NCBI GenBank assembly: GCA_024760545.1
Contig: CP060501.1
Coordinates: 3,860,036-3,924,035, forward strand
Length of the DNA stretch: 64,000 nt
Source: Nitrospira sp.
Lineage (GTDB): Bacteria; Nitrospirota; Nitrospiria; Nitrospirales; Nitrospiraceae
Direction: 5' to 3'
The translations under genes and the position numbers were made by a program. Below are positions 1-24,613 of the stretch, in pieces. Every line of letters starts with the position of its first letter. The first letter of the stretch is position 1. Under the pieces are notes generated by a model. The model made no database searches and had not been told where the DNA came from. It worked only from the letters and a program-made list of their open reading frames with translations.

Positions 1-291
1 TCCCTTTCCCAACTTGGTTGGTTTGCCATCGCTCCCATGACATCGAGCGCAATTGACTGCTGGATTACTTTTGCCTTCGTAAATCTCCTTCCCCACCACT
101 TGTGCTTTGGGGTCGTTGGGCATTCCGGTCGCCATAATTTTCCCAGCATACTCGATGGGAATAGCTTCCTCAGGTGCATCCTCCGCCGAAGCGGCGGTTC
201 CTGCCAAGGCAACCAGGAATCCGATGACCGCCCACATCTTGATCGCCACATTGCTTCTCCCCGTTACCAATCGACGATCTGCGTTTCCCAT
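1..291 (-). CDS. c-type cytochrome, partial (runs off left edge)
   Basis: The frame starts at an ATG preceded by AGGAGA eight bases upstream and stays open to base 1, so 97 codons are visible and the C-terminus is missing. The N-terminus is basic, followed by a hydrophobic stretch (about residues 19-36) ending AASAED, a signal peptide or anchor. A CARCH heme-binding motif lies near residue 84 in a context (VNCARCHGSDGK) typical of class I cytochrome c. It should be a periplasmic electron carrier. The membrane cytochrome just upstream on the same strand suggests one operon and perhaps one respiratory complex. The electron donor and acceptor cannot be told from this fragment. Confidence 0.8.
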   Translation of the reverse strand, partial: MGNADRRLVTGRSNVAIKMWAVIGFLVALAGTAASAEDAPEEAIPIEYAGKIMATGMPNDPKAQVVGKEIYEGKSNPAVNCARCHGSDGKPTKLGKG

Positions 292-324
292 TTGTCCGTT
301 CTCCTGTATGTGAACAGCAGCGCA

Positions 325-1035
325 TCAATGCATTGTCCGAGCAAACCACATCTCGTAAAGCGAAATCCCAATCTGCAACGCCAGAGACAGTCCCATCAGC
401 ACCCCTCCACCGATCACGATGTAGGCAAAGAGAGGAGCGTGTTTGGTAAACCACCAGGACCCGATGTCCAGCCAGATGGCGAGGAAAGGAATCGCCACCA
501 GAACGGCCCGAATGGAAGCGGGGATTTCACTGAAGACGAAGATGAGGCTCGTGAGCATAAAGATGAAACTCATGCCGAACAGATGAATATGAGAGACTCG
601 AACCAGTGACTGGATGGATTGGCCAAGGTCTAGTTCGGTATAGCGAACGACCTCAGTATAGGAAGAAAGCGACGGCAAGCCCGTCCCCGAGGACGCACTG
701 TGGCAGTCCCCGCAAGCCTGCTTGAGGATCGGCTGGACCTTCACGAAGTCGGTTTCGGCCGCGCCCGCTCGTATCCACTGGATCATCTGTGTTCGCTGCG
801 CGTCAGTAACATATTCTGTCATAGGTCCTCGGAGGGCCGCTTCAAGCTTTGTCGTGTCCCGTTGACCGTAATATTTCATGATCACGCCGGCGGTGAGTCC
901 CATGCCGTGTTTGGTGTGTGGCTCCACATCAATCAGGTAAAGGTACGCCAAGGCGAAAAGATAGGCCACGCCGATCGTGAGCAGAAAGACGCTCGCAAGT
1001 ACCTTGAGAGGCAAGGTCAATGATCGGAGAGTCAT
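325..1035 (-). CDS. membrane-bound cytochrome c protein
   Basis: A 236-residue protein with one N-terminal membrane helix (about residues 10-35), a periplasmic segment with one CGDCH heme site (C108, C111, H112), then a C-terminal bundle of about four hydrophobic helices (residues 148-230). The sequence RVSHIHLFGM at the start of the bundle has histidines that could ligand a second heme or a metal; this is inference. It lies 33 bp upstream of the partial cytochrome and is probably co-transcribed with it. The arrangement suggests quinone- or cytochrome-linked electron transfer at the inner membrane. I do not recognise a named family; membrane cytochrome c is as far as the sequence goes. Confidence 0.75.
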   Translation of the reverse strand: MTLRSLTLPLKVLASVFLLTIGVAYLFALAYLYLIDVEPHTKHGMGLTAGVIMKYYGQRDTTKLEAALRGPMTEYVTDAQRTQMIQWIRAGAAETDFVKVQPILKQACGDCHSASSGTGLPSLSSYTEVVRYTELDLGQSIQSLVRVSHIHLFGMSFIFMLTSLIFVFSEIPASIRAVLVAIPFLAIWLDIGSWWFTKHAPLFAYIVIGGGVLMGLSLALQIGISLYEMWFARTMH

Positions 1036-1074
1036 GCTATTTTCCCGCAGGCAACATCCGACAGGCCGATCGCT

Positions 1075-1251
1075 TCAAGGTTTGCGACCCTCAAATCCTT
1101 TCATGTACCGCACGGGATCCTCGTCAAACTGCTCTTTGCAGGGCTTCGAGCAGAAATAATAGGTCTGTCCTTGCCAGGTGCTGCGAAAGGGAGCCGTTTC
1201 CTTGTCGATCCACATCCCGCACACGCGATCCATGGCTTTTTGGTGTGTCAT
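1075..1251 (-). CDS. small YHS-domain protein
   Basis: A 58-residue protein that is almost entirely one YHS domain. It has C11 in the DRVCGM motif, then YYFCSKPC (C34, C38) and the closing DPVRYMKG segment. YHS domains are short Cys-containing modules found in metal-handling proteins, usually thought to bind or sense soft metals. The start is the ATG at 1251; a second in-frame ATG follows six codons later (MDRVCG) and could be the true start. The closest relative in this window is the N-terminal domain of the alpha-glucan phosphorylase at 5231-7063. It lies 39 bp upstream of the membrane cytochrome gene on the same strand. Confidence 0.75.
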   Translation of the reverse strand: MTHQKAMDRVCGMWIDKETAPFRSTWQGQTYYFCSKPCKEQFDEDPVRYMKGFEGRKP

Positions 1252-1328
1252 GGCTCTCCCTCCTTATCTCGTTTATCCCCGACCTGCGACCGGCACAGAG
1301 TCGCGCTCTAAAGAACCACCTACTTTCT

Positions 1329-1814
1329 CTATGTCTCTTCCCAGTTCTCATACCGGGTGCCGATCTCTTTCAGCCTACTTTGCATTTCGTGGAGGCAAAA
1401 AACTTCGCAGGCGTTCACGGGAACGTCCAGTTGCGCTCGATCCAGAATCTTGATCGTGACAGTCACCTCCGACCGATTGCATCGGATGGGGTCATAGAGA
1501 ATGACATTGTCCGAGACAGCTATCTCATACCGAGAGGGCCGCTCCGCTTTCGGCAGGATCCACTCTGCGATCTCGCGCAGATGGCCCAGAATGGTTCCAC
1601 ATCGCTCGCAGCCTGGTCTTGGCGGGTCGGTTCCGTGCGCATGGGCGCCGTAGAGTGCCAGATTGAAGCCGATCTGCAGCGGCTGCTCATCCGGGACAGG
1701 CAGTAGTACTGGTAATACCTCCCAGCACACGCGGTGTTCACGCCCGAACGCGCTCAACCGCACCATGGCGTAGGTGCTGGCTGTTTGTTTTCCTCGCTGC
1801 TCGTCTTGCGACAC
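1329..1814 (-). CDS. conserved hypothetical protein with CxxC pair
   Basis: A 161-residue soluble protein starting at a GTG six bases after a good GAGAGG ribosome site; the next ATG is at 1766. No signal peptide or membrane segment is apparent. A CERC pair lies near residue 69 and further cysteines occur near the C-terminus, so metal binding or a structural Zn site is possible. It lies in the row of minus-strand genes between the GH57 glycosidase and the YHS protein. I do not recognise the family. The coherent length and ribosome site support a real gene. Confidence 0.55.
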   Translation of the reverse strand: MSQDEQRGKQTASTYAMVRLSAFGREHRVCWEVLPVLLPVPDEQPLQIGFNLALYGAHAHGTDPPRPGCERCGTILGHLREIAEWILPKAERPSRYEIAVSDNVILYDPIRCNRSEVTVTIKILDRAQLDVPVNACEVFCLHEMQSRLKEIGTRYENWEET

Positions 1815-1903
1815 TGATCACCTCTCTCGGTTTTCTCCAAGCTCTGAACCTCAGTCTATCCCGCAGTAGACGCAGGCTTACGAGAGCCTCCACCAGACCT
1901 TCC

Positions 1904-4216
1904 CTAGCGCCGTCCCTGCGCCTGCTTCCCGGTGACCTCGATCCGCCGAAGTTCGAATCGGCAGCACGGATCGGTCCCGCAGCAAGCCGGATGCGCACAT
2001 TGGAATCGGAACTCAATCTGGCATGTCGCCGGGGCAAACGGTCCCAGCGTTACGCCGTAACGATGGATCGCGGCCATTACTCCTCCAGCCGAAACCATTT
2101 CACATGTTCGCCATTGGTCATCGGAATCGGTTCTCCAGCTGAGTCGACCAGGACAATTCGTCCGAATGGTAAGTCGGTCCTCTGGTCGGATTGAGGCAAT
2201 CGGACGTGCGAAGGTCCAGATCAGCGTATGGGGCACGATGGATTGATCAAGGGCCACCGGTGGGGTCCGGCCAATGGCGCGGTAGACCGTCTTCAGATGA
2301 TCGCGAAACAGGTCATCGAACTCCGCATCGGAGTCGGAAGCCTGGTCCTCGCCGAACCACCAGAACCAGTCGCTACCCTCGGCAGCGTACAGTGCCTCAA
2401 AGACCTTGGGATGACGCGATGCCGTAACCTTCATGCGGTCTATAAGATCACGGGTCTCCCCCAGTAAGTCCCACGCCCGGTTTTCTTCCGCCTCACCGAC
2501 CCAGGTGCCAAGATCGTTCCCGGGCCGCGAGCCGTTCTCGTCGATCCAGCTCGCTTCAGCGAGGTCATAGACTTTCGGCAATGCTTCGATCGGGTGAGCC
2601 GGCACCCGCCGCATCGGGTTACCCTCAAGGTACTCCCGAAACGTGACTGTGCGAATCTCCGGATCAGCGGCAAGCGCCGTATACAGGGCATGCAGAAACG
2701 GGCGCGCCTGGTGTGGATAGGCCCCCCACGCGTTTTCCCCATCTAGAATCACGGACACGATCCGGTTCGGAGGGTCGTTGACCTGCCAGGCGAACCGCTC
2801 TTTCAATTCTTGCAGAAAGTCGGCGGCCGCCTGTGCGGGACTTGCGTAGCTGTGGTAGTGAAAGCCGATCTTGTCTGACAAGACGGAATCGCGGAAAAAG
2901 ACGGCGACACCACGGCCCAGCCCATTTTTAGCTCGATACGCTTGGCATAGGACATTTGAGTCCTGGACGTCGTAACCATACTGCCCAGAGCGTGCCAGGA
3001 CGCCGCGATCGGTCGCGATCCATCGCACGCCGGACTCTGTGAAAAGAGAGATAACCGACTGGCCGACCGCGCCCTCAGCAGGCCATATCCCGGCGGGCGG
3101 ATGCCCGAAGCGTTCTTCGTAGAACCGCCTAGCACGATGGAATTGTGCCACTGCGTCTTCTGGGTGGTGAAACCGCCGGGGATGCACTGCGCCAGGACGA
3201 TCAATGGTGGCGCGATCCGAATCAACAAGCAGCGGAAGGATAGGATGGTAGAAGGGGGTAGTGGAAACCTCGATTTGGCCTCGCTCTTGGAGCTGTCGAT
3301 GGATCGTGGCGACATTGTGCAGGATCTTTAGTTGCTCCGTGATCATCTGCTCAATCTCACGGGCGGTATAGCCTGCGCCCTTTTCGACGAAGCGACGCAC
3401 GGAGGAAGTTCTGCCATTAGGCAGCGCCACCTTGCCTTCTTGAAACTCTGGGCCGAACCAGGACAGGTTGAACCACATCTGGAGATCCGCGAGATCCTGG
3501 ACCGTGAACGCACGACTGTTCTGGCGCTGCTCAAACAGTTCACGATAACGAGGCCAGGGAAAGATCTGGGTGTGCCAGTCGGCTTCGTAGAAGGTGGCGA
3601 GGAGCTCCTCGCGTTGGGCGGTTGAAAGCCGGTGCGCAGGAGTCATGGTCAGATCAAGGGCGCGATCCGTCGCCCCGCGCTCGACATAGTCCTCGATCTG
3701 CCACAGCAGCACCGGGGTCAGGTTGATGGTGAGGTGGACCTGAGGATGCTGTTCCAGCAACGCAGCCATAGCGTAGTAATCGCGGATGGCGTGCAGCCGC
3801 ACCCAGGGGAACCGATACGATCCCTGCGGTCGCTTGGCTTTGAGATTTTTGTACAATGGCTGGTGTTGATGCCAAAGGATCGCGAGATGAATTTTGGGAC
3901 CTACCTGAAAGGTGAAGGGGCCAATTTCACAAGCCCCGGACGGCGAACTCCCGTGCAGCCTGTACTCCACCCGATCTCCATCTGCAAACGGCCCGACGTT
4001 GATGAACCAGTAGCTATTGGCATCGCGGTTGAAGTTCCACGTTCCCTCGACACGCCTGGCCTCCTCGGCCCCGTTCGAATGCACAACCCGAACGTCGATC
4101 CAGGCATGCTGGCCCTCCTCGATCGGCCATGTGCCGAACTGGAGGTTAACGTTCTGCCCCGCACTAACATGGAACGGAAAGCACGGCGTGTCCGATGTGA
4201 GATGCCAGATCACCAT
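1904..4216 (-). CDS. glycoside hydrolase family 57 protein (amylase / glucanotransferase type)
   Basis: A 770-residue protein. Residues 1-105 resemble a carbohydrate-binding, Ig-like domain. The GH57 catalytic domain begins at LAILWHQHQP (near residue 112), the family's first conserved motif. GIWPAEGAVG carries the likely catalytic nucleophile (E381) and ILDGENAW the likely acid/base (D492). GH57 enzymes cleave or transfer alpha-1,4-glucans by a retaining mechanism. There is no signal peptide, so it probably acts on intracellular glycogen. The C-terminal part (from about residue 640) is beta-rich, with a Cys cluster HPACCGTDPCC that may bind metal. The glucan phosphorylase two genes upstream points to glycogen mobilisation. 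Amylase and 4-alpha-glucanotransferase activity cannot be separated from sequence alone. Confidence 0.85.
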   Translation of the reverse strand: MVIWHLTSDTPCFPFHVSAGQNVNLQFGTWPIEEGQHAWIDVRVVHSNGAEEARRVEGTWNFNRDANSYWFINVGPFADGDRVEYRLHGSSPSGACEIGPFTFQVGPKIHLAILWHQHQPLYKNLKAKRPQGSYRFPWVRLHAIRDYYAMAALLEQHPQVHLTINLTPVLLWQIEDYVERGATDRALDLTMTPAHRLSTAQREELLATFYEADWHTQIFPWPRYRELFEQRQNSRAFTVQDLADLQMWFNLSWFGPEFQEGKVALPNGRTSSVRRFVEKGAGYTAREIEQMITEQLKILHNVATIHRQLQERGQIEVSTTPFYHPILPLLVDSDRATIDRPGAVHPRRFHHPEDAVAQFHRARRFYEERFGHPPAGIWPAEGAVGQSVISLFTESGVRWIATDRGVLARSGQYGYDVQDSNVLCQAYRAKNGLGRGVAVFFRDSVLSDKIGFHYHSYASPAQAAADFLQELKERFAWQVNDPPNRIVSVILDGENAWGAYPHQARPFLHALYTALAADPEIRTVTFREYLEGNPMRRVPAHPIEALPKVYDLAEASWIDENGSRPGNDLGTWVGEAEENRAWDLLGETRDLIDRMKVTASRHPKVFEALYAAEGSDWFWWFGEDQASDSDAEFDDLFRDHLKTVYRAIGRTPPVALDQSIVPHTLIWTFARPIASIRPEDRLTIRTNCPGRLSWRTDSDDQWRTCEMVSAGGVMAAIHRYGVTLGPFAPATCQIEFRFQCAHPACCGTDPCCRFELRRIEVTGKQAQGRR

Positions 4217-4285
4217 GCTCTATGATTCTCCTGCTTCTTCTACCTCCATCATGTCGTCAAACGGCTGGTTCTGACTATCAACCCA

Positions 4286-4954
4286 TCAACTATCCAGACG
4301 CCCGTCAATTTGTTCTCGTCTCTGCCTTCCCCATCGCGGGAAGAAGGCGGGTGTGGTCTCTGCATAACGATCATAGGACTCGCCGAATTCCGCACGGACC
4401 TGCCTCTCCTCTTTGTGAGCGAGACGGACATACATCGTCACGAGTATGGGGAACATGAACAATGTTGGAATGGTTGGCCATTGGAGGAGAAAACCCAGCA
4501 TGATCACGATGAAGGCTACATACTGCGGATGTCTTATCCGGGCATAGGGTCCGGTCATGGCGAGGGTCTGGCTTCGTTGCGCCCTATACAAGACTTCCCA
4601 CGAAGCCGCCAGTAGAAAGAACCCTCCGAAGATCAGCAGCCCACTGAGAATGTGCAAGGGATCACTATGCGCATGGCTTTTCATGCCCAGCAGGGTATGC
4701 CAGAGATGCCCGGTTTCGTGGGACCATAGATTTACTCCGGGATATCGGCTTTCCAGCCATCCGGAGAGCAGATAGATGGTCAAGGGGAATCCGTACATCT
4801 CGGCAAACAGAGCCACGATAAACGCCGAAAAGGCACCCAGGGATCGCCAATCGCGTGTCGTCCGCGGCCGCGTGAAGCTAAACGCGAAGAGGATAAACAC
4901 CACCGAGTTGATGATCACTAACGACCATAACCCATAAGCCGATCCTTCATCCAT
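4286..4954 (-). CDS. NnrU / isoprenylcysteine methyltransferase-like membrane protein
   Basis: A 222-residue integral membrane protein. The chosen start (MDEGSAYG) overlaps the stop of the upstream small gene by 8 bp, which suggests translational coupling; the frame stays open further upstream but would overlap that gene. Five or six hydrophobic segments are visible. The C-terminal motif TGPYARIRHPQYVAFIVIM followed by a conserved basic and acidic end (EERQVRAEFGESYDRYAE) is the hallmark of the isoprenylcysteine carboxyl methyltransferase / phospholipid methyltransferase superfamily. In bacteria most such proteins have unknown substrates. Its partner, the short DUF2933-like protein upstream, often accompanies it in metal-resistance regions. 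Confidence 0.8.
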   Translation of the reverse strand: MDEGSAYGLWSLVIINSVVFILFAFSFTRPRTTRDWRSLGAFSAFIVALFAEMYGFPLTIYLLSGWLESRYPGVNLWSHETGHLWHTLLGMKSHAHSDPLHILSGLLIFGGFFLLAASWEVLYRAQRSQTLAMTGPYARIRHPQYVAFIVIMLGFLLQWPTIPTLFMFPILVTMYVRLAHKEERQVRAEFGESYDRYAETTPAFFPRWGRQRREQIDGRLDS

Positions 4955-5180
4955 GGGAATGGCCTCCGGTGTTGGCCTGTGAGTCGGGCTGCTTCCCGCC
5001 TGGTGGAGATTCGGAGTCATGACCACCATGTCGCCTGTGTAGAAGGAGATGGAACAACGGGCAGGCGAACAAGAGAAGATAGGGGAGTATTCCGAACACA
5101 TGCGCCCGGTGTTCGGTCACGAGAAAAAATCCCAGGACCGCGAGAAAGGCGTAGAGAACGAGCCGTCGTAAATTATTCAT
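4947..5180 (-). CDS. small membrane protein, DUF2933-like
   Basis: A 77-residue protein starting at ATG 5180. Two hydrophobic helices (about residues 6-20 and 29-46) with a short loop are followed by a His-rich tail (HLLLHRRHGGHD and a final GGHSHG). This arrangement is typical of DUF2933 proteins found beside metal-efflux genes, where the His-rich tail could bind metal ions; the function is unproven. It overlaps the methyltransferase-like gene by 8 bp, so the two are probably translated together. It follows the phosphorylase gene by 50 bp. Confidence 0.7.
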   Translation of the reverse strand: MNNLRRLVLYAFLAVLGFFLVTEHRAHVFGILPYLLLFACPLFHLLLHRRHGGHDSESPPGGKQPDSQANTGGHSHG

Positions 5181-5230
5181 CGAAATGGACCTCACTTGCA
5201 CCGGTGGATCATCGACGCGTGCATTTGCTC

Positions 5231-7063
5231 TTACACATAGGCATTGGCGGCATACTGCTGGACCATGCGGTGGGTGTTGAAGAATGACGCGTTGAACGCC
5301 ATCGTATGCCGCATCACGTTGATCCAACGATCCCGCGATTGGTAGTACATCGGCACGATCGTCCATCGCAGCTTCTGATACAGCTCACGCGCCTCTTCCG
5401 CTTCATCGGCGACTTGCCCCAATGTCCGTGAGCCGATCGACCAACCCGTCACGCCTTCGATGTGGCCTTCCACCCACCAGCCGTCCAACACACTCAAGCT
5501 TGGCACACCGTTGTGGGCCGCTTTCATGCCGGACGTCCCGGATGCTTCGAGCGGCCGCTGAGGCGTGTTCAGCCACAGATCCACGCCGGCTGTCAGGAGC
5601 CGGGCGAGGGTTACGTCGTAGTTGTCGAGGTAGAGAATCGTCACATCCCGTTCGAGCTGCTTAGCCGCTTGCACGATCCGGCGGATCATGTCCTTGCCGG
5701 GCTCATCCTTGGGGTGCGCCTTGCCCGCGAACAAGATCTGCAGCGGTCCTGCGTTCTTGGCCACGGCGGTCAATTCACGAGGTGCCGACAAGATTAAATC
5801 GGCCCGCTTGTATAAGGTTGCACGGCGGGCGAAGCCGATCGTGAAGGCATCCGGCCTCAACTGCTGCTGAGTGCGCTGCCTCACTTCTTCAAGCAGCCGC
5901 GTCTTGGCCTTGATATGCGCGTTCCAGATCTCCTGATTTGGGACACTAATCGTGTAGCGAAGAGAGAACGGATCGGTTCGCCAACCGGGAATCGACCGAT
6001 CGTAAAGATCCTGGAAGCTCTCGCTGGTCCAGGTGACTGAATGGATGCCGTTCGTGATCGAATCGATGACATGCGCGGGAAACATCTGTTGCGAGACTTC
6101 GCCATGCCGCTTGGCCACGCCATTGACATAGGTGCTCATGTTGAAGCCCAGGAGCGTCATGTTCAGGCGGTCCTGCCCACCTAGCATCTGTAAGACTTCC
6201 AACGGTAGTAGGTCCCCCATGACCCGACGAACACGGTCATACGCGAATTGATCGTGGCCGGACGGAACCGGCGTGTGGGTGGTAAAGACGCAGCGCCGTC
6301 TTACCGCAGGGAAGTCCCACTCTGTGGAACCGACCGGAGTTGACTCGCGTAGGAGTTGGAGCGTCAAGAAAGCGGCATGACCTTCATTCATATGGAATCG
6401 TTCCACTGCGGAATACCCAAGAGCCTGGAGCATTCGGATGCCGCCGATGCCCAGGATGATTTCTTGCGCGAGCCGGTAGCGGTCATCCCCTCCGTAGAGC
6501 CACAAGCTCAGCTCTCGGTCTTGCTGGGCATTGTCCGGACGATTGGCATCCAACAAGAGCACTGGTACCCGACCGCCCGTGACACCGATAAGATCATATT
6601 GCCAAGCCTGGACGATCACTGTCCGTGCTTCGATGGCCACGGTCACTGTGGCCGGGAGGAGGCGAAGTTGGACTCTCGGCTCCCACGACACCGGCTGCTC
6701 GTGCTGGTTGCCCCACTCGTCCAGCTTCTGCTCAAAATATCCGTTCCAGTACAGGAGGCTGACTCCAACGGCCGGAATTTTGAGATCGGCAAACGATCGG
6801 AGCGTATCTCCCGCTAGAACCCCCAACCCTCCACTGTAGGTGGGCATTGCAGGATCAAGCGCCACTTCCATCGTAAAATACGCTACACGTTGGGTGAAGG
6901 GGCCAGCCGTCCCGGCCGGTTCAAGCGGTCTCAGGTATCTCTCGGGACCAGCGAGGAAGGTGCGCCGACACAGATCGGAACAGAAGTAGAACATCCGGTC
7001 TCCGTAAGTGGCCGCCAAGGCCTGCTCTTGGAAGACCTTCATGCCACAGACCGGATCTTTCAT
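5231..7063 (-). CDS. glgP: alpha-glucan phosphorylase with N-terminal YHS domain
   Basis: A 610-residue protein. Residues 1-45 form a YHS domain (MKDPVCGMKV, then FYFCSDLC; C6, C28, C32). From about residue 55 it is a short-type family 35 glycosyltransferase, starting at RVAYFTMEVALDP, with RFHMNEGHAAF in the middle and EASGTSGMKAA near the end, where K514 should bind pyridoxal phosphate. Such enzymes release glucose-1-phosphate from glycogen or maltodextrin. The start has GGGAG seven bases upstream. A YHS domain on a phosphorylase is unusual and might tie activity to a metal; the separate YHS protein at 1075-1251 is a related module. The GH57 enzyme downstream probably works on the same polymer. 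Confidence 0.88.
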   Translation of the reverse strand: MKDPVCGMKVFQEQALAATYGDRMFYFCSDLCRRTFLAGPERYLRPLEPAGTAGPFTQRVAYFTMEVALDPAMPTYSGGLGVLAGDTLRSFADLKIPAVGVSLLYWNGYFEQKLDEWGNQHEQPVSWEPRVQLRLLPATVTVAIEARTVIVQAWQYDLIGVTGGRVPVLLLDANRPDNAQQDRELSLWLYGGDDRYRLAQEIILGIGGIRMLQALGYSAVERFHMNEGHAAFLTLQLLRESTPVGSTEWDFPAVRRRCVFTTHTPVPSGHDQFAYDRVRRVMGDLLPLEVLQMLGGQDRLNMTLLGFNMSTYVNGVAKRHGEVSQQMFPAHVIDSITNGIHSVTWTSESFQDLYDRSIPGWRTDPFSLRYTISVPNQEIWNAHIKAKTRLLEEVRQRTQQQLRPDAFTIGFARRATLYKRADLILSAPRELTAVAKNAGPLQILFAGKAHPKDEPGKDMIRRIVQAAKQLERDVTILYLDNYDVTLARLLTAGVDLWLNTPQRPLEASGTSGMKAAHNGVPSLSVLDGWWVEGHIEGVTGWSIGSRTLGQVADEAEEARELYQKLRWTIVPMYYQSRDRWINVMRHTMAFNASFFNTHRMVQQYAANAYV

Positions 7064-7141
7064 ACGGTATCTCCCATTTGCGGTGCCACCACGCCAGCAA
7101 AGTAGGGGACGGCCAACGTCGGATCACCACCGTCACTCCTG

Positions 7142-7348
7142 TCACTTCGGCGACGTGAGTATTTCTCGCTCCGCGTCAATCCAATCTTCCACATCACACC
7201 CCGGTCTGCAGCCTCGATCGATGTAGAGCTCATAAGCTCGCTTCGCAATCCGGTCACGAAGGTCATCGGACATGATTTGCTCTGGGATAGCAGCCTGTGT
7301 GGTATCAGCCTTGTCGTTGTGCCGTTTCTTTACCCGTTGCGGTTTCAT
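7142..7348 (-). CDS. DUF2934 family protein
   Basis: A 68-residue soluble protein. The ATG at 7348 is chosen because GGGGGAAG lies just upstream; the frame stays open further but without a better site. The N-terminus is Lys/Arg-rich. The C-terminal half reads IAKRAYELYIDRGCRPGCDVEDWIDAEREI, matching the DUF2934 pattern (RAYELYxxRG, then DWxxAExE), a short helical domain of unknown function common in Nitrospira-like and acidobacterial genomes. The two Cys in RGCRPGCD are not part of the usual pattern. It lies 78 bp upstream of the phosphorylase. Confidence 0.75.
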   Translation of the reverse strand: MKPQRVKKRHNDKADTTQAAIPEQIMSDDLRDRIAKRAYELYIDRGCRPGCDVEDWIDAEREILTSPK

Positions 7349-7495
7349 GCTTCCCCCTTTTCCAGTCCTAGAGATGAAATATCTACCGGGTGCTGCGAAC
7401 TGTTGAACCATGACTGAAATATGGGACTGATTCATGATTGAGCGGGCGGCTTCAGACTCATTGAAAAATCCGCATAGCGTTCAGAATATTGCCCT

Positions 7496-7834
7496 TCAGG
7501 GAATGCCTAGCTCTTGTTCGCGATGCAGCTTGGCGAGAGCCTCCGCTTCTTCGGCGGCCTTCGTGTAATAGCGCATGAAGTCGCGACAATGCCTGAGCAG
7601 CTCTCCCTTGGACTCTTTTGGAGAAAGCGGATAGTCGTGGGCTGCGTATCGATCGCTCATCTGACGCATTTCTTCTGCTTTACCGTGCAGGCGCAGAGCT
7701 TCCTGCTCATACCAGCTCGCCAGTCCACTGTGATTGTTGCGTTCAATGAGTTCGCGTGGTGGACCAGTTGAACAGGCCATGATCGCCACGCCGAAGAACA
7801 GGACAAACCACGACAGCTGCCGCGAGATCTTCAT
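7496..7834 (-). CDS. small predicted lipoprotein, paralogue of neighbour
   Basis: A 112-residue protein with a lipoprotein signal (hydrophobic stretch ending VAIMAC, lipobox Cys near residue 21), so it should be anchored to a membrane from the periplasmic side. The rest is charged and helical (YEQEALRLHGKAEEMRQMSDRY and YYTKAAEEAEALAKLH), likely a small helical hairpin. It shares layout and motifs (HSGLASWYEQEA against HQELAMYYAEQA; HCRDFMRYYTKAAEEAEALA against HCRQIARNYRKMADEAAALA) with the gene at 7977-8315, so the two are tandem duplicates. The start has GAAGGAG upstream. Function unknown. Confidence 0.7.
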   Translation of the reverse strand: MKISRQLSWFVLFFGVAIMACSTGPPRELIERNNHSGLASWYEQEALRLHGKAEEMRQMSDRYAAHDYPLSPKESKGELLRHCRDFMRYYTKAAEEAEALAKLHREQELGIP

Positions 7835-7976
7835 GGGCGCTTCACTCCTTCGAGCATGTGTTTATGCGCAGCTCGACACTCCAAAACCCAGAGCGGCGCC
7901 GGGGATCTTTTCGTACAAATTGCGTGATCGCCTCGGCGCCCCTGGTCATCCTATCGACATGTTCCGATGCTACAAC

Positions 7977-8315
7977 CTATGGTCCCTTGCGGGTTAAACC
8001 CAAGTGTTCGGTCGCCAAAGCTGCAGCCTCGTCTGCCATCTTCCGGTAGTTTCGCGCAATTTGACGGCAATGGGCCGCCTCGTCGGCAATGTCGCTCGAC
8101 TTATAGAGCTCCGGGTGATGCTCGTAGGATTCAGCGGTATTGTCCCAGAACCTTGCTTTCGCCTTGAAATCCTGGGCCTGCTCCGCATAGTACATCGCGA
8201 GTTCCTGATGATTACCCTTGGCAATCCCAGGCTCAGGACCTGTCATGGCAAAGCTTGGAATGGCCAAGCCCAGTAAGAGGACGATGAATGATAATCCCCT
8301 CATAACCTGTCGCAT
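7977..8315 (-). CDS. small exported helical protein, paralogue of neighbour
   Basis: A 112-residue protein with a normal signal peptide (about residues 1-23, ending PSFAMTG), without the lipobox Cys of its neighbour. The mature part is helical and charged, with two conserved blocks shared with the lipoprotein at 7496-7834: H-Q-E-L-A-M-Y-Y-A-E-Q-A and HCRQIARNYRKMADEAAALA. GGGGG lies seven bases before the ATG. The pair probably arose by duplication and then diverged in location, one lipid-anchored and one soluble. Function unknown. Confidence 0.7.
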   Translation of the reverse strand: MRQVMRGLSFIVLLLGLAIPSFAMTGPEPGIAKGNHQELAMYYAEQAQDFKAKARFWDNTAESYEHHPELYKSSDIADEAAHCRQIARNYRKMADEAAALATEHLGLTRKGP

Positions 8316-8504
8316 CGTAAATCCCCCCTTCTATTTTTGGCAGTGATCCATTTCACTGCCTGTGCTGATGCCGAAGCAATCAACGTACCAACTACTTAGG
8401 GCGATATTTTATATAGGAACCAATTCTATTACTGTATTAACTGACCAACACCTCCTCTTTTGCGACAATTCACCGTGGCAATAAAGGACAGGCTTCAATT
8501 TAAC

Positions 8505-8521
8505 TGTCGCGTAACGCGACA
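8505..8521. promoter_or_regulatory. 17-bp perfect palindrome in gene-free stretch
   Basis: TGTCGCGTAACGCGACA is a perfect 8-bp inverted repeat around one central base. It sits in the 319-bp gap (8316-8634) between cusA and the small exported protein gene. Another GCGACAAT lies near 8462. No T-run follows, so it is more like a protein-binding site than a terminator. Nothing else is recognisable in the gap. Confidence 0.35.
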
Positions 8522-8634
8522 ATGGGCCATTACAAATATTCTTCCGACGGGACCGTCTGGCCTCGAACAGGCTCCTCTTATTACAGTTTCTGCACGGATG
8601 TATGGCAATTCGTTTGTTAAGAACGTCACGAGTG

Positions 8635-11600
8635 TCATGATCCTCTCGCCTCAATTTTTATCGTCCGGCCTTGCCTGCGCTCGCTCCACCACCTCCACAT
8701 GACATAGATGGGCGGAATCACAAACAGCGTCAGGACCATTGCGGAGAACACCCCACCGACCTGTGGAGCGGCGATCCGCTTCATTACATCCGCCCCGGTT
8801 CCCGTAGCCCACATGACCGGGATCAACCCGATGACATCGACCAAGCCAATCATCATCATGGGCCTAATGCGTTCGACTGCCCCCAGCTGGACTGTGTCGA
8901 TTAAATCTTCCAACGTCGTGAGCCCGCCGGCCGCTTTGCGTCGGGCGCAAGCTTCATCCAAATAGGCCAGCATGACCGCGCTGGTTTCCGCCGCGGTCCC
9001 CACGACAGTGATCAGCCCCACCCACACGGCAATGCTCATGTTGTAGCCAAGGATCGAGAGGTACCAGACGGCCCCGACTAATGAGAGCGGCACCCCGATC
9101 ATCACCATGAAGGTCTTGGCCACCGACGCAAAAGAAAAGTAAAACGTGACAAAGATGATCACGAGCGTCAGCGGCACGACGAACTTCAGTCGTTCCTTTA
9201 CCCGCTGCATGAATTCATACTGGCCGGACCAAACGATCGTATAGCCCGCTGGCAGTTCGACTTTTGCTGCCACAACCCTTTTAAGGTCCTCCACGTATCC
9301 GCCGACATCACGCCCCGTCATGTCCAAGAACACATACCCTGAGAGCATGCCGTTTTCGTCACGGATCATCGGCGGCCCATTGACGAAACGTAGTGTCGCG
9401 AGTTGCGCTAGCGGCACTTGCGCGCCGGTCGGCGTATCCACCAGCACGCGCTTCAGCTTTTCAGGATCATCCCGCAATTCACGGAGATAACGGACGTTGA
9501 TTGGATACCGCTCACGGCCCTCGATCGTCGTCGCGATGTTTTCGCCGCCGATGGCCGTTTCGATGATCTTGCCGACATCCATCAGCTTGAGCCCATAGCG
9601 TGCGATCTCCTCGCGATTGATATCGTAATCAAGGAAGTAGCCGCCTGACACTCGCTCTGCATACACGCTGCGCGTGCCTGGGACCTCTTTGAGCACCATT
9701 TCCAGATGTCCACCGATCTGTTCGATCTGTTTCAGATCGGGACCAAAGATCTTGATCCCGACCGGCGTCCGAATGCCAGTCGTCAACATGTCGATCCGGG
9801 CCTTAATCGGCATGGTCCAGGCGTTCGTCACACCAGGAATCTGGAGCGCTCGGTCCATTTCATCCACGAGTCCCTCATAGCTCAGACCTGGCCGCCACTG
9901 GTCTTTGGACTTTAGCTCAACCACGACTTCCATCATGCCAAAGGGCGCCGGGTCGGTGGAGGTTTCGGCTCGTCCAGACTTGCCGAAGACATGCTCCACC
10001 TCCGGAAAGGATCGCAGCTTTTGATCCATAATCTGCAGTAGCCGGCTGGCCTCCGTCACTGACAAGCCCGGCAAAGTCGTCGGCATATAGAGGATCGTGC
10101 CTTCGTACAGGGGCGGCATAAATTCGGAGCCCATCTGCTGGTAGAGCGGGACGATGCTGGCCATCAACACAATAGCTCCGATCACGACCGCTTTCCGATA
10201 GTACAAGGCCGTGCGCAGCACGGGCGCATAGAGCCGTTGGAGCCCGCGGGTGACAGGATGCTTCAGTTCCGGAAAGATCTTGCCTCGAATGAACGTCGGT
10301 AAGCAGGCCGGGACCAACGTGATGGCCAGGACCGCGCACATCACGATGGCCAGGTTGTTGGTCCAGGCCAGCGGCTTGAACATGCGGCCTTCTTGCGCTT
10401 CGAGCACGAAGACCGGGATGAACGAGATCGCGATGACGAGCACCGACGCAAAAATGGGCGGGCCGACTTCCTTGGCCGAATCGATCAGGACTTGGAGCCG
10501 ATCGCCGACCTTCCCATCTCGTTCCCATTCCTCGAGGCGTTTGTGGGCGTTGTCCACCATCACGATAGCGGCATCGACCATGTCTCCGATCGCCACGATG
10601 ATGCCGCCGAGCGACATGATGTTGATGCCGATGTTCATCAGATAGATGGGAATGAAAGAGATCAGGACGGCCAGCGGAAGCGTCAGGATCGGGACAATCG
10701 CAGAACGGACATGGAGCAAAAACGCCAGGATCAGTACCCCCGTGACCACCAATTCTTCGATCAGACTTTCCTTAGCCGTGGCGATAGATTCGTGAATCAA
10801 GTCGCTCCGGTCGTAGACCGTGACGACCTTCACGCCTTTCGGCATGGACGGCTCAATCTCTTTCAGCTTCGTCTTGACTCGTTCGATCACATTGAGCGCA
10901 TTCTCGCCAAACCGCATAATCACAATGCCGCCTGCGACCTCGCCTTGCCCGTTGAACTCCGCCAGCCCTCGTCTCATGTCCGGCCCGAGCCGGACCGTGG
11001 CTACGTCGCGCAACAGAATTGGCGTCCCGTTCTCGTTGACTGCCACGGCGATCTTCTCTATGTCCTCAGCCCTCTTGATGTAGCCACGCCCGCGCACGAC
11101 GTATTCGATCCCCGAAAACTCTACGACACGACCGCCCACGTCGTTGTTGCTCTGTCGAATCGTTTCGACAATAGAAGGAAGAGAAAGGCGATAGGCCAAG
11201 ACCTTGGTCGGATCGAGATTTACTTGGTATTGCCGGACGAAACCGCCGATACTCGCCACTTCAGCCACGCCCTCCACGGCGCGCAGCCAATACCGGAGAT
11301 ACCAATCCTGGAAACTGCGCAGGGCGGCCAGATCATGCCGGCCAGTCTCATCGACGAGGGCGTACTGATAGACCCAGCCCACGCCCGTCGCGTCTGGGCC
11401 GAGCTGCGGCGTGACCCCTTCCGGCATCCGTCCAGAGAGTTGGCTCAACCGTTCGAGGATGCGCGACCTGGCCCAATAGATATCCGTGCCGTCTTTGAAG
11501 AGAATGTAGACATAGGAGTAGCCGAAGTCCGAGAAACCACGGACGACCGTCACGTTGGGAGCTGACAGGAGCGCTGTGACGATCGGATAGGTAATTTGGT

Positions 11601-11787
11601 CTTCGACCAGATCTGGCGAACGGCCCTGCCAGGTCGTATAGACGATGACTTGTGTATCGGAGATATCGGGCAGTGCGTCGATCGGCGTTTGCCACATGGC
11701 CCAGAGTCCGACCGCTGAGAATGCGAAGACCAGCAGGAAGACGATGAAGCGGTTTCTCGCGCTGAATTCGATGATCCATTCAACCAC
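8635..11787 (-). CDS. cusA: Cus-type RND transporter (Cu+/Ag+ efflux pump)
   Basis: A 1050-residue heavy-metal RND pump of normal family length, starting at GTG. The transmembrane helix 4 motif AIGDMVDAAIVMVDNAHK (near residue 400) is the signature of the monovalent-metal (Cu+/Ag+) branch. The three methionines that relay copper in E. coli CusA have counterparts here, in LYMP, DPAPFGMMEV and RIDMLTTG. The protein should be the inner-membrane proton antiporter that takes copper or silver from periplasm or cytoplasm and delivers it through CusB to CusC. It is the last gene of cusC-cusB-cusA, 6 bp after cusB. Likely regulator: the Cys-tailed ECF sigma factor at 15317, by inference. Confidence 0.95.
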   Translation of the reverse strand: MVEWIIEFSARNRFIVFLLVFAFSAVGLWAMWQTPIDALPDISDTQVIVYTTWQGRSPDLVEDQITYPIVTALLSAPNVTVVRGFSDFGYSYVYILFKDGTDIYWARSRILERLSQLSGRMPEGVTPQLGPDATGVGWVYQYALVDETGRHDLAALRSFQDWYLRYWLRAVEGVAEVASIGGFVRQYQVNLDPTKVLAYRLSLPSIVETIRQSNNDVGGRVVEFSGIEYVVRGRGYIKRAEDIEKIAVAVNENGTPILLRDVATVRLGPDMRRGLAEFNGQGEVAGGIVIMRFGENALNVIERVKTKLKEIEPSMPKGVKVVTVYDRSDLIHESIATAKESLIEELVVTGVLILAFLLHVRSAIVPILTLPLAVLISFIPIYLMNIGINIMSLGGIIVAIGDMVDAAIVMVDNAHKRLEEWERDGKVGDRLQVLIDSAKEVGPPIFASVLVIAISFIPVFVLEAQEGRMFKPLAWTNNLAIVMCAVLAITLVPACLPTFIRGKIFPELKHPVTRGLQRLYAPVLRTALYYRKAVVIGAIVLMASIVPLYQQMGSEFMPPLYEGTILYMPTTLPGLSVTEASRLLQIMDQKLRSFPEVEHVFGKSGRAETSTDPAPFGMMEVVVELKSKDQWRPGLSYEGLVDEMDRALQIPGVTNAWTMPIKARIDMLTTGIRTPVGIKIFGPDLKQIEQIGGHLEMVLKEVPGTRSVYAERVSGGYFLDYDINREEIARYGLKLMDVGKIIETAIGGENIATTIEGRERYPINVRYLRELRDDPEKLKRVLVDTPTGAQVPLAQLATLRFVNGPPMIRDENGMLSGYVFLDMTGRDVGGYVEDLKRVVAAKVELPAGYTIVWSGQYEFMQRVKERLKFVVPLTLVIIFVTFYFSFASVAKTFMVMIGVPLSLVGAVWYLSILGYNMSIAVWVGLITVVGTAAETSAVMLAYLDEACARRKAAGGLTTLEDLIDTVQLGAVERIRPMMMIGLVDVIGLIPVMWATGTGADVMKRIAAPQVGGVFSAMVLTLFVIPPIYVMWRWWSERRQGRTIKIEARGS

Positions 11788-11793
11788 GGGCGT

Positions 11794-13059
11794 TCAATCC
11801 TTCATCTTCATGCCGGGCATGCCACCCATGCTCTCGACGACGGCCTTAAGACGGCTTTCGCTGTCAATTAAGAAGTTGGCTGAGGTGACAATGTGCTCAC
11901 CTTCTTTCAGACCTGTCAGCACTTCAGACCATTCGCCGGTCTTGACTCCGGTTTTGATCAGGCGCGGCTCGAGTTTCCCGTCGCCCAGATGGAGAAAAAC
12001 GACCTGCTTTTGTCCCGATTCGATGATGGCTTCTTGCGGAATCGCCAAACGAATGCCCAAATTCACCCGCAACTCCACGTTGGCATACATGTCCGGCTTG
12101 AGCGTGTCATCACGGTTGTCGAGTTCGAACCGCACCTTTGCCGTGCGGGTTTTCGGGTCCAAGGTGGGATAAATGAAGCTCACGTGGCCAGTCAGCGCCG
12201 TGCCAGGGTCGTAGGAGAGGGTGACGGCAGCATTCTGTCCCGCTTTGATGAACGACAGCTCGTATTCGTAAATGTCCGCCAAGATCCAGATATGGGAGAG
12301 ATCCGCAATGGTATAGAGTTCTACTCCAGCATCCACATGCGCACCGGCGAGGGCGTCCTTCTTGATCACCGTTCCGGTGATGGGCGAATGGATCGGCAGG
12401 GTTTTCAGCACCTTCCCGGTCTTTTCGAGTTCTTGGATGTGATCATCCGTGATATCCCAGAGCTGAAAGCGGCGCTTGGTCGCTTCGAGCAAATCCTTGG
12501 AGCCTTGCGCCACTTCGGGAAACTCGCTGCCCCCCAATTGCTTCTGACTATGCACCGCGAGGAGATACTCCTCTTGAGTTGCGACCAGATCGGGACTATA
12601 GATCGTGAAGAGCGCCTGACCTTTCTTCACGTGATCCCCGAGCGCGCTGACGAACAGCTCTTCGATCCACCCGTGAAACTTGATCGTGACTTTGGCCTGC
12701 TTGCGCTCGTCAATGGCAACTCTGCCGACCGTGCGGATACTCTTCTCCAAGGGACGACGTACCACCTGCCCATACTTCACCCCGATTGTTTGCAGCCGTT
12801 CCGGTGCAATGGTCACGATGCCTGGCACACCTTCGGACTCGAGGGGAGTCTCCGGTCCAACCGCTTCCTCCACCGGGGCCGGTTTCCTCTGTTGCTCCTT
12901 TCCCATCCCCGGCATGTCCATCCCGGCCATCTCGTCCTGTCGGGAATCCGTCGGTGGAGGCACCACCGGCCTCGTCGTCAACCAGACAACTGCGGCAGCG
13001 GCTATGATTATGATGAGGACCGCTGCCATACCGATGACACGCTGACGAGTCATGATCAC
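11794..13059 (-). CDS. cusB: Cus-type periplasmic adaptor (membrane fusion protein)
   Basis: A 421-residue HlyD-like adaptor. An N-terminal membrane anchor (about residues 10-28) is followed by a Met-rich stretch (MAGMDMPGM, near residues 44-52), a plausible Cu+/Ag+ capture site as in CusB. Barrel-sandwich and beta-barrel domains follow (IYSPDLVATQEEYLLA; HSPITGTVIKKDALAGAHVD; GIRLAIPQEAII). Another Met cluster closes the protein (MGGMPGMKMKD). The GTG at 13059 overlaps the cusC stop by 4 bp; an ATG two codons later (13053) is the alternative start. It links CusA to the outer-membrane channel CusC. Confidence 0.93.
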   Translation of the reverse strand: MIMTRQRVIGMAAVLIIIIAAAAVVWLTTRPVVPPPTDSRQDEMAGMDMPGMGKEQQRKPAPVEEAVGPETPLESEGVPGIVTIAPERLQTIGVKYGQVVRRPLEKSIRTVGRVAIDERKQAKVTIKFHGWIEELFVSALGDHVKKGQALFTIYSPDLVATQEEYLLAVHSQKQLGGSEFPEVAQGSKDLLEATKRRFQLWDITDDHIQELEKTGKVLKTLPIHSPITGTVIKKDALAGAHVDAGVELYTIADLSHIWILADIYEYELSFIKAGQNAAVTLSYDPGTALTGHVSFIYPTLDPKTRTAKVRFELDNRDDTLKPDMYANVELRVNLGIRLAIPQEAIIESGQKQVVFLHLGDGKLEPRLIKTGVKTGEWSEVLTGLKEGEHIVTSANFLIDSESRLKAVVESMGGMPGMKMKD

Positions 13060-14360
13060 GGTTTTCTTTCCGACAACGGGCCGTCGAATGCCCCACCCGT
13101 TACAGCTTCGAGCCGAGCGAGCGCTTTCTCGTGGTTTACCATCTCGCCATGCAGCTCAAGCTGGCTTTCTTGCAACGTCAGGAGGCTATTCAGCAGCGTG
13201 AGGAAGTCTACTTTCCCCACCGCGTACCCTGCTTGCGCGGCCTGCAGGCCGAGCGTGGCCTGGGGAATGATGGCATCGCGTAAGATGGTGATCAGCCGCT
13301 CGGCCCGCTGGGCCTGCACAAATCCATCTTTCACCTGGAACAACAGATCCTGACGAGTCGCCGTAAAATCCTCACGCGCTCCCTCTAAGCTGGCTAGCGC
13401 TTCTCGGACCCCTTGTTTCTGTTTGGTTTCATAGAATAAGGGGATCTTGATGCCCACCATCACCTGGTAGCCGTTGTCATTGATCTTGTCGTTGCGGATG
13501 CCGAGAGCTGTGACATCGAAATCCGGATAGAACTGTCGCTTCGCAAGGGAGACAACCCGCTCAGAACGATCGATGCCTTTTGCCGTCGCGAGCAGCGCAG
13601 GTGAGAATTCGTTTGCCCGCCTGTTGAGTTCCTGAAGAGGGAGTGTCAGAAGGGTACTCTGTACGTCTTCCGGGGTGCCCAACGGACCATCTGGTGGACG
13701 ATTCAAGAGCCGATTGATGGCTGCGTGAAGGCTCTCTTTCTGCTGGTCGAGGACGGCCAGCCGATCGAGGACGCGTGAAATTTCGACCTGGGCGCGAAAC
13801 ACGTCCTGCTGCGCGGCTTGCCCAACGCTGTATCGAGTCTTGGCTGTCTTCTCGAATTGCGTCAGCAGTCCCTTGTTTCTCCCCACGATGTCGATGCTCT
13901 TATGGACGAAGTGGAGATCGAAATAAGCCTGCTTCAGCGCTGCCACGAGCCGCAAACGGGCCGCAAGATACTCTTGTTCCATTCGCTCCGCCTCCTGTTG
14001 AGCGACTTCTCCTCTCAGCTTGAGCTTGCCCGGAAAGGGGATGTCCTGCCCGACTCCATACATCACCCCTTCAACTACGGGAGGCACCATCGGCATACGC
14101 TGATAGCCAATTTGAAGACGAGGATCGGGCAAGGTCTGAACTTGTGGTACGACCGCCTTCGCGGATTCCCATCGTTGGCGGGCCGCCTTAATCTCGGGAT
14201 TTGCGGCTTCGAGTTCTCGAATAAGGCTGGAAAGCTCCAAGCGTGGTTCAGCCGATTCCTCGGCCGCGCCGACCGGCCAGGGGAGAAGCAGGAGCGTTAG
14301 CGTAATCAGCCACCCGGCCCGCACTCGAGGGAATGAAAGAGGGATACGAGTGTGTTTCAT
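13056..14360 (-). CDS. cusC: Cus-type outer-membrane efflux channel (TolC family)
   Basis: A 434-residue TolC-family protein with a signal peptide (residues 1-32, ending VGAAEE). It contains the duplicated outer-membrane efflux domain with long coiled-coil helices (first half from SSLIRELEAANPEI, second from ELNRRANEFSPALL). The DPRLQIGYQRMP and GVGQDIPFPGKL segments are typical of metal-RND outer-membrane factors. As the exit duct it completes the CusCBA tripartite pump. It overlaps cusB by 4 bp (GTGA), so translation is coupled. A small exported Met/Cys-containing protein lies 83 bp upstream. Confidence 0.92.
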   Translation of the reverse strand: MKHTRIPLSFPRVRAGWLITLTLLLLPWPVGAAEESAEPRLELSSLIRELEAANPEIKAARQRWESAKAVVPQVQTLPDPRLQIGYQRMPMVPPVVEGVMYGVGQDIPFPGKLKLRGEVAQQEAERMEQEYLAARLRLVAALKQAYFDLHFVHKSIDIVGRNKGLLTQFEKTAKTRYSVGQAAQQDVFRAQVEISRVLDRLAVLDQQKESLHAAINRLLNRPPDGPLGTPEDVQSTLLTLPLQELNRRANEFSPALLATAKGIDRSERVVSLAKRQFYPDFDVTALGIRNDKINDNGYQVMVGIKIPLFYETKQKQGVREALASLEGAREDFTATRQDLLFQVKDGFVQAQRAERLITILRDAIIPQATLGLQAAQAGYAVGKVDFLTLLNSLLTLQESQLELHGEMVNHEKALARLEAVTGGAFDGPLSERKP

Positions 14361-14443
14361 GACCCACCTCCGACGGTAAAAAGCATTACCGCCCGCTCAG
14401 CGTCAGCAGCTAAGCAGGGGACGACGAAACCGGAGGTGGACGA

Positions 14444-14797
14444 TCAGATGCGAAGAACCGAGGAGGAGCTTATAGAGAGAGGAACAAGGGAATACGCCGT
14501 ACTCCAAGACCACATCGTCTCAGTAGAGACATCGGTGGAGATTCCGGGATGATTGAGTAGAGACGGAACAGGATCAATCACCACCACGCTGTTTTTTATC
14601 TGACGCTCAGGAGACGCGGTCAGTGAGGGAGAGCACATGATGGCCCCGTCCATTGGACAGGCCATATCATTCATTTCTTCAGACACCTGTGGCAGGTCGT
14701 CAGCCAACGATAAATCCGGCACCGAACACATTATCCCGACGATCTGGCAGAAGGCAAAGACCAGAACCATGAACCGTATGGTAGCTTGGACACGCAT
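14444..14797 (-). CDS. small exported Cys/Met-containing protein at head of cus operon
   Basis: A 117-residue protein. The N-terminus is hydrophobic (residues 8-31) and ends DLSLADD, a probable signal peptide. The mature part has the cluster MNDMACPMDGAIMC, rich in Met and Cys and fit for copper or silver. The end is hydrophobic and Ser-rich (SLVPLSISSSSVLRI). Ribosome-site spacing at the first ATG is poor; the internal ATG at MVLVFAF is possible. Comparable small leader proteins precede both czc clusters here. By position and composition it resembles CopL/DUF2946-type metal-binding leader proteins, but sequence similarity is too weak to assign a family. Confidence 0.55.
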   Translation of the reverse strand: MRVQATIRFMVLVFAFCQIVGIMCSVPDLSLADDLPQVSEEMNDMACPMDGAIMCSPSLTASPERQIKNSVVVIDPVPSLLNHPGISTDVSTETMWSWSTAYSLVPLSISSSSVLRI

Positions 14798-15316
14798 TAT
14801 AAAATAAAGCCGACCTCTCCCACGCTAGGGCAATTAGTATACGCTCATTCGAGCAGGTCCATCAAGTCCAGCAAACTCCCTACAGGAGCATCAACAATGC
14901 CAGCAAACCAATTCGAGGAGCCTCACGGAATAGGAATTATGATTCCAAGAGATTGCGACGATCTCCAGTCGATGATGTCGATTTCTTTCCATGCAAGTAG
15001 TGGGGCGTTTCCGGACAGCTGCGTAGTTTGTAACCGTGGCGAATTGCCTCACGTGAGAGGATCAAGCAGAGCCATCCAGTTAGCGAAGTGAAGGAACAAG
15101 AAAGAATGTTGCCTGACTTGATGATACCATCCATATGGGCATGTCGTTCTACCGAAGCTTCGGTGACCATCTCCCGCTGGTGCGCAAAAGACGGCGCGAA
15201 CCGAGTCAAATTCAATTTTGTGGTGGGCATACGGGCGTGTTCTACACCAGAAATGGATTACCGCAGAAGGTCGGAATTCTGAGCTGCAGGTATAATGCGA
15301 TACGAAAGAGCTTCCC
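14798..15316. other. 519-bp stretch without a recognisable gene
   Basis: Between the cus leader gene (minus) and the ECF sigma gene (plus). Both strands have short open frames but none has a family resemblance or a convincing ribosome site. A TATAAT at 15291-15296 lies 20 bp before the sigma-factor ATG and is a possible -10 element; no good -35 is seen at the right spacing. Confidence 0.4.
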
Positions 15317-15907: not shown

Positions 15908-16038
15908 AACTTGCGCGATTTCATCCATGTGCCGGTCCCTTCCCGCGTGAACTGTAACATTCGGTGGCTCCTTCCGTCAGTAAAGGTGTACGAGGCGAAT
16001 CAATCGACTCAGAACCCACAGATGATAAGGAGGTAGTA

Positions 16039-16104
16039 ATGCAGATATTGGCAGTACAGATCGACGGTAGGACCAGCGGGCATTGCATTGTAAGAATTAT
16101 CTAG
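16039..16104 (+). pseudogene. decayed heavy-metal-associated (HMA) domain remnant
   Basis: A strong ribosome site (AAGGAGG) precedes an ATG and 21 codons reading MQILAVQIDGRTSGHCIVRI. This matches the first strand and metal loop of a copper-chaperone-like HMA domain, where GMTCGHC is expected. The Met and first Cys of the loop are replaced by Arg and Ser, and a TAG follows directly. The in-frame continuation (AVKG) still resembles the family for a few residues before running into the end of the CDF gene. It looks like the stump of a deleted metallochaperone gene. Confidence 0.5.
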
Positions 16105-16118
16105 GCAGTGAAGGGCTG

Positions 16119-17000: not shown

Positions 17001-17132
17001 GAGAGCCTCTTTCGTTTGAGCCGCTGGCTTTCTCCAGTCTTGCTTGTAGTAGGTTCTGCATCGTAATTGTGCCCCAGGAGTAGCAATCATACTGTCGAAG
17101 CACGATAAGCCTCTTCACAATCATGGTTTTGT

Positions 17133-23889: not shown

Positions 23890-23901
23890 CGAAGTTGCCC
23901 C

Positions 23902-24612: not shown

Positions 24613-24613
24613 G

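Follow-up and report, generated by a model that had tools for sequence, protein, structure and literature searches.

A gene joining a YHS domain to the N-terminal end of a glucan phosphorylase was identified in a 64,000-nucleotide stretch of a Nitrospira sp. genome (hereafter, the window), and the same fusion is carried in an open frame at 34 loci in the Nitrospirota, Planctomycetota, Cyanobacteria, Acidobacteriota, and Deltaproteobacteria, with some of these copies near-identical to one another (Nostoc, Aulosira). Because the fusion is open at these 34 loci and its YHS part is under purifying selection, it is confirmed to be real and not a product of chance. The best explanation of its role, to which we assign about an even chance, is that the protein would serve as an accessory phosphorylase in copper/silver-type resistance clusters, gated by copper or silver through the N-terminal YHS domain and mobilising glycogen during metal stress.

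The fused gene occupies positions 5231..7063 on the minus strand and encodes a single chain of 610 amino acids; the plus-strand reading of this interval is interrupted by stops. An earlier sequence-only reading of the window had placed an N-terminal YHS module with C6, C28, and C32 here, and both the coordinates and the residues were right, with the gene lying on the minus strand. The YHS domain (residues 1-46; 6926..7063, minus strand) matched Pfam PF04945 over residues 1-44 with 41.3 bits against a cut-off of 30.3, and D3, C6, C28, and C32 are its proposed metal ligands. It is followed by a linker (residues 47-58; 6890..6925, minus strand), which is the least conserved part of the protein, and by the alpha-glucan phosphorylase part (GT35 short form; residues 59-610 plus the stop; 5231..6889, minus strand), assigned from its NCBIfam match, motifs, and fold. 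The TIGR02094 model (alpha-glucan family phosphorylase) matched residues 60-609, near end to end, with 548.5 bits against a cut-off of 191.7. The GT35 part is a complete short form without the DUF3417 domain found in the long paralogue of this genome, and in that sense the full GT35 enzyme claimed by the sequence-only reading holds. The active-site motifs are intact: K514, R413, R414, and K419 are invariant in both alignments (A1 and A2), and R420 is likewise invariant. We take K514 to be the PLP lysine and R413, R414, K419, and R420 to be the phosphate-site motifs.

The GT35 part also aligns to the solved Segatella copri enzyme. A structure model of the fusion had a mean pLDDT of 88.3, with values of 72-87 by blocks in the YHS domain and below 50 at residues 46-56, and its best solved-structure matches were glycogen phosphorylases (top match 20yr, TM 0.83 by query), such that the modelled protein has the glycogen phosphorylase fold. 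By profile and motifs, the fusion is classed as a member of the alpha-glucan family phosphorylases (TIGR02094, GT35), and phosphorolysis is its predicted activity. The source genome (4.81 Mb, two contigs) contains two more GT35 genes, one short and unfused and one long with DUF3417, and the closest named relatives are Nitrospira sp. UBA2082 (84%) and N. moscoviensis (81%), which puts the window in the genus Nitrospira or near it.

The sequence-only reading had proposed a search for the YHS plus GT35 architecture, and in that search the fusion recurred in several phyla, as described above. Among 98 related genomes (including the source genome), the fusion is open in 7 and broken in 2, and all 7 of the former carry one or more further GT35 matches (in two pieces in G053), so the fused copy is an extra one. 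The YHS-to-GT35 junction is present in 18 of 395 sampled Nitrospirota genomes, a count that includes the frame-broken genes of G007 (C31, L126) and G012 (C1, L127); since such broken copies exist, the gene is dispensable. G021 (C45, L122) has, upstream of its intact copy, a second one that is truncated. A scan of named-species genomes confirmed 565 stretches, of which the best 80 were analysed: 19 genes were fused (L051 with an in-frame stop), 59 were unfused, and 2 were truncated by a contig end. The YHS profile matched the phosphorylase frames of 19/19 fused and 0/59 unfused genes in this best 80 of 565, where L094 and L105, with frames broken at the start, were read by eye. The 19 fused genes belong to the Nitrospirota, Planctomycetota (including Gemmata, Isosphaera, and Kuenenia), Cyanobacteria, Acidobacteriota, and Deltaproteobacteria. 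Five cyanobacterial plasmid records matched from residue 1 at approximately 60% identity among the 40 listed of 545 with some match; two further plasmid rows (H14 and H23), matching from residue 2, were ruled out as fusions since they are long forms with DUF3417 and without YHS.

The YHS motifs are strictly maintained across these copies. Both D-x2-C-x-M and C-x3-C are kept in all 38 copies, comprising the 34 in open frames and four that are broken or partial (L126, L127, L144, which equals L051, and the second copy in L122), and the only invariant YHS positions in 19 aligned fusions are D3, V5, C6, M8, C28, C32, and F36. CHM/CRM variants of the motif occur in L051, L054, and L059. The domain carries the D/C, C, C, C ligand set of PF04945, from which metal ligation is predicted. 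Values of dN/dS for the YHS part ranged from 0.14 to 0.20 in four computable pairs, three of which are not independent, and were undefined in two further pairs; those for the GT35 part ranged from 0.10 to 0.13 in six pairs. The YHS part is thus under purifying selection. Searching solved structures with the stand-alone YHS protein yielded only weak matches, including phenol hydroxylase.

The group of fused genes that includes the window's own lies apart from the Deltaproteobacterial pair L054/L059 in a tree built from 107 GT35 sequences (27 of them fused). A single origin of all 27 fused rows was rejected, at a cost of 142 log-likelihood units (p-AU 0.00017, 89 rows), which points to at least two occasions on which YHS joined the short-form glucan phosphorylase. 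Constraining the 24 non-Deltaproteobacterial fused rows (Kuenenia included) to one clade gives a better fit than an unconstrained tree (p 0.708), and these rows are compatible with one origin; all origin tests were quick tree searches.

All described genes from position 14360 down to 325 of the window lie on the minus strand, with a largest gap of approximately 320 bases. The run begins with a gene in the position of an outer-membrane factor (13056..14360), an open reading frame that is CusC-like by place and clusters with the similarly placed gene of other loci, followed by a CusB-like periplasmic adaptor (11794..13059; above the cut-off of TIGR01730, with CusB as the best model but below its cut-off) and a CusA-type RND pump (8635..11787; TIGR00914, 1150 bits against a cut-off of 701). 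Three methionines of this pump align with those of E. coli CusA, giving the triad MMM; we take the triad positions, in role and numbering, to be the copper/silver residues of CusA. Next are two 112-amino-acid proteins of the same cluster, both without a Pfam match (7977..8315 and 7496..7834, the latter recurring near fusions), and, just upstream of the fusion, a DUF2934 protein (7142..7435; PF11154). Downstream of the fusion, the run continues with a DUF2933 protein (4947..5180; PF11666, with the start picked by eye within the open reading frame 4947-5366), an ICMT-like methyltransferase open reading frame (4286..5101; PF04140, 25.7 bits against a cut-off of 24, with the true start probably near 4951), a glycoside hydrolase family 57 (GH57) enzyme (1904..4216; PF03065), and a 161-amino-acid open reading frame product (1329..1814) that recurs in three loci and has a homologue without a Pfam match. 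The last two genes encode a stand-alone YHS protein of 58 amino acids (1075..1251; PF04945, 56.1 bits), real as the sequence-only reading had it and on the minus strand, and a 236-amino-acid membrane protein (325..1035) in which a CxxCH haem-c-like motif was recognised by eye and whose Pfam matches all fall below cut-off.

The fusion thus sits in a one-strand run with a CusA-family pump, with which it may be co-expressed. Promoter and terminator scans showed no difference from shuffled sequences, and nothing decisive was found among terminators, promoters, tRNAs, and base composition. A second RND set is located at 16119-22797 of the window, its CusA-like pump having N, V, and E in place of the methionine triad. 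With a gene for a CDF cation-efflux protein (16119-17090) as well, several metal exporters are present in the region.

The window region is read as accessory from comparison with G382, the sole same-species genome compared, in which no match above 87% identity was found to window positions 1-20000 or 20001-40000 or to the preceding 20 kb (87% over 38 bases). As a yardstick, a 20-kb stretch that contains the unfused short GT35 gene (L130; G000:C1:2326001-2346000) matched G382 at 100% over 4 kb, and the remainder matched at no more than 87% or had no match; this stretch too is therefore mostly variable. G382 has a fusion of its own, 65% identical over the first 120 residues and downstream of a CusCBA-like set.

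A total of 37 fused loci were mapped, all picked for being fused, and the gene profiles were built from these loci. Of the 22 mapped Nitrospirota loci, 17 have a CusA-like gene, in some cases a fragment, upstream of the fusion and on its strand; none was found in the other five (L121, L125, L133, L135, and L156), of which L121 and L156 are short contigs. The methionine triad is kept in 13 of 15 distinct CusA-like proteins longer than 900 amino acids, the exceptions being the second pump of the window and one Planctomycete pump. On four cyanobacterial plasmids, genes for a YHS-bearing CPC-motif ATPase, DUF2933, ICMT, and DUF5676 lie upstream of the fusion within approximately 11 kb, accompanied in three of the four by a stand-alone YHS gene, and the ATPase of the Chroococcidiopsis plasmid scores above the copper-ATPase cut-off. 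In the independent Deltaproteobacterial pair, the fusion is closely preceded by genes for a cupredoxin and a CPC-type copper ATPase, with the ATPase of L146 above the copper cut-off.

Metal markers, defined as any of ICMT, CPx ATPase, a YHS-type gene, DUF2933, CusA-like, or DUF5676, were found within 4 kb of 17 of 19 fused genes compared to 7 of 59 unfused genes in the best 80 of 565 stretches. The fused count was again 17/19 when the profiles were rebuilt leaving out each locus's own lineage (with the mixed ATPase marker). With this mixed marker (CPx plus calcium-/magnesium-type ATPases) the unfused count is 13/59, with CPx alone it is 7/59, and the fused count is 17/19 both ways. The Fisher p of 7e-10 for this association is a guide only, given that fused loci supplied the profiles and that the loci lack independence. 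Considered singly, ICMT lies within 4 kb of 8/19 fused and 0/59 unfused genes, and a YHS-type gene within 4 kb of 8/19 fused and 5/59 unfused genes, two of these five being YHS-kinase genes; the latter counts bear out the common theme with a nearby YHS gene that the sequence-only reading had seen. No marker was found in the examined flanks of two of the 19 fused loci (L042 and L049, the latter on a short contig). A GH57 enzyme adjoins the fusion in several Nitrospirota and a phosphoketolase occurs in some lineages, with no phosphoketolase enrichment near fusions (2/19 fused versus 4/59 unfused). An involvement of glucose-1-phosphate in feeding an envelope polymer was rejected as too thin, with a nucleotidyltransferase (mannose-1-phosphate type, below cut-offs) near the fusion in three loci.

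YHS domains also occur on other proteins in these neighbourhoods. In the Thermodesulfovibrio locus L062, which belongs to the sister group of the Deltaproteobacterial fusions, an unfused GT35 gene lies between a CPx ATPase and an adjoining gene for a YHS-histidine kinase (5883-6749; YHS, HisKA, HATPase_c), and in L076 a comparable arrangement includes an additional intervening open reading frame, with a similar, putative kinase gene at 4613-5488. Near a Deltaproteobacterial fusion, L147 encodes a YHS domain fused to a pyridine-nucleotide-disulphide (flavin) oxidoreductase (109-1209, minus strand). In Planctomycetes, a SLOG-cluster-4 protein with a C-terminal YHS domain is encoded at a distance of two genes upstream of the fusion, identified by Pfam in L141 (12233-13072, minus strand) and by likeness in L139 (1-603). 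A partly similar set without YHS is found on the Methylophaga pinxianii plasmid (L119), where an unfused glgP occurs with DUF1622, MerR, DUF2934, SHOCT, DUF2933, and glgX.

Copper or silver gating is favoured because the YHS-adenylyl cyclase of Mycobacterium phlei is copper-switched and has the same proposed ligand set, and because YHS domains occur on other proteins nearby, a kinase among them. According to the report on that cyclase (PMC4626032), copper at 1-10 µM raises its activity sixfold in the presence of Mn and, with Mg, switches on an otherwise inactive enzyme, while copper only inhibits the isolated catalytic domain, above 10 µM; one aspartate and three cysteines are the proposed ligands. 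By analogy, cytosolic copper (or silver) would bind the D3/C6/C28/C32 site of the fusion, and this binding would change phosphorylase activity by way of the short linker. We infer both the gating and its sign from the M. phlei enzyme, with activation being likelier. The glucose-1-phosphate released from glycogen could then supply energy and reductant while the pumps clear the metal, and the adjoining GH57 enzyme and, in some lineages, phosphoketolase would fit such a module. We also infer that the domain binds metal, which metal it binds, and the physiological purpose, a reading under which copper stress might itself directly trigger the consumption of stored sugar.

The sequence-only reading had raised metal or redox control of glycogen breakdown; metal control is well supported as a hypothesis, based on the invariant ligand residues, the copper/silver-type resistance neighbours, the at least two origins, and the M. 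phlei copper switch (PMC4626032), and a direct redox role is not supported. Several observations count against gating, including the loci without a marker (2/19) or without a CusA-like gene (5/22), the broken copies, promoter and terminator scans resembling shuffles, marker profiles built from fused loci, and the YHS domain of toluene-4-hydroxylase, which is reported to carry no metal and to have no known role (PMC4626032). In Synechocystis, high copper lowered transcripts of the housekeeping glgP and glgX (ratios of 0.35 and 0.33; PMC4182526); this also counts against gating, yet it could explain the use of a copper-dedicated copy.

There are several other potential explanations for the fusion. 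The YHS domain may be a docking or metal-passing module that recruits the phosphorylase to a YHS-ATPase, a stand-alone YHS protein, or the pump, or trades copper with one of them, leaving catalysis uncontrolled. The nearby YHS-ATPase and stand-alone YHS genes and the flexible linker agree with docking, but the YHS-enzyme that has been tested is gated (PMC4626032), and there is no evident reason to bring a phosphorylase to a metal pump, so we consider docking unlikely. It is quite unlikely, in our estimate, that the domain is a structural or protective site that binds zinc or buffers copper and keeps the enzyme active in metal-loaded cells with no regulation. Treble-clef-type zinc folds are often structural, and high copper does inhibit unprotected enzymes such as the isolated cyclase domain (PMC4626032); however, similar phosphorylases do without YHS at 59 of 80 loci (best 80 of 565), and the fusion is concentrated in metal-gene settings.

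Resistance islands gather stress genes, and the fusion could be a shuffling accident kept without a metal role. The region appears to be accessory, with no match above 87% identity to window positions 1-40000 in G382, and islands also hold stress and carbon genes, but such hitch-hiking is very doubtful given that the fusion arose twice independently, that the ligand residues do not vary, and that YHS is under purifying selection. Finally, the sequence-only reading had considered that the YHS part might be a separate gene in relatives, joined here by a lost stop. This fails for the present lineage, for which no such case was found; the unfused loci L062 and L076, sister to the Deltaproteobacterial fusions, do encode YHS apart from the phosphorylase, although there it belongs to a histidine kinase. 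A lost stop or an assembly error is rejected, its probability being close to negligible, as the fusion recurs in open frames at 34 loci that include the complete N. moscoviensis chromosome and complete plasmids.

Metal gating may also belong to a wider pattern, which is put forward tentatively and at somewhat less than an even chance: YHS would be a portable copper switch acting in the cytosol, which resistance islands couple to various outputs, at least twice independently to a glucan phosphorylase and also to the histidine kinase, flavin oxidoreductase, and SLOG-family protein nearby, making the fusion the first metal-gated glycogen phosphorylase and coupling copper shock to stored sugar. 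In animals and yeast, phosphorylases are under allosteric control, with phosphorylation and nucleotides acting at the N-terminal region; if gating is true, a metal-sensing domain at this position would be a new kind of input, copper defence would be linked to carbon reserves, and the numerous YHS domains of resistance islands would gain a suggested role.

No literature pairing a YHS domain with phosphorylase, glycogen phosphorylase, or glycogen was found in a search of largely open-access literature. A report on a yeast under copper describes a spot called glycogen phosphorylase that rose 35-fold and whose best database match is a Burkholderia protein (PMC6436437). In its catalytic part, the fusion resembles the TIGR02094 short form throughout, with the invariant active-site motifs and the fold, whereas the unfused members examined have no YHS (0/59 frames) and long forms have DUF3417 instead. 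YHS-bearing copper P-type ATPases share the N-terminal YHS domain, the motif, and the clusters, although the partner there is a transporter and not a soluble enzyme. In Alteromonas and other marine bacteria, genes for DUF2933 and ICMT are found beside copper ATPases, with many of these sets lying on genomic islands (PMC8478169), similar to the DUF2933-ICMT pair after the fusion in the window and to the copper ATPase and cupredoxin of the Deltaproteobacterial fusions; in contrast to the fusion loci, YHS, phosphorylase, and glycogen are nowhere mentioned in that paper. The closest parallel in design is the M. phlei YHS-adenylyl cyclase (PMC4626032), in which YHS is likewise attached to a catalytic domain and has the proposed ligands D, C, C, and C in D-x2-C and C-x3-C. 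There, however, the domain is C-terminal instead of N-terminal, the second and third ligands are spaced by 22 residues compared to 21 in the fusion, and the output is cAMP as opposed to the predicted glycogen phosphorolysis; copper switching is a feature of the cyclase, and a metal response of the fusion would follow by analogy. Both domains and one YHS-gated enzyme were already known, and what is new is this output for a known sensor module.
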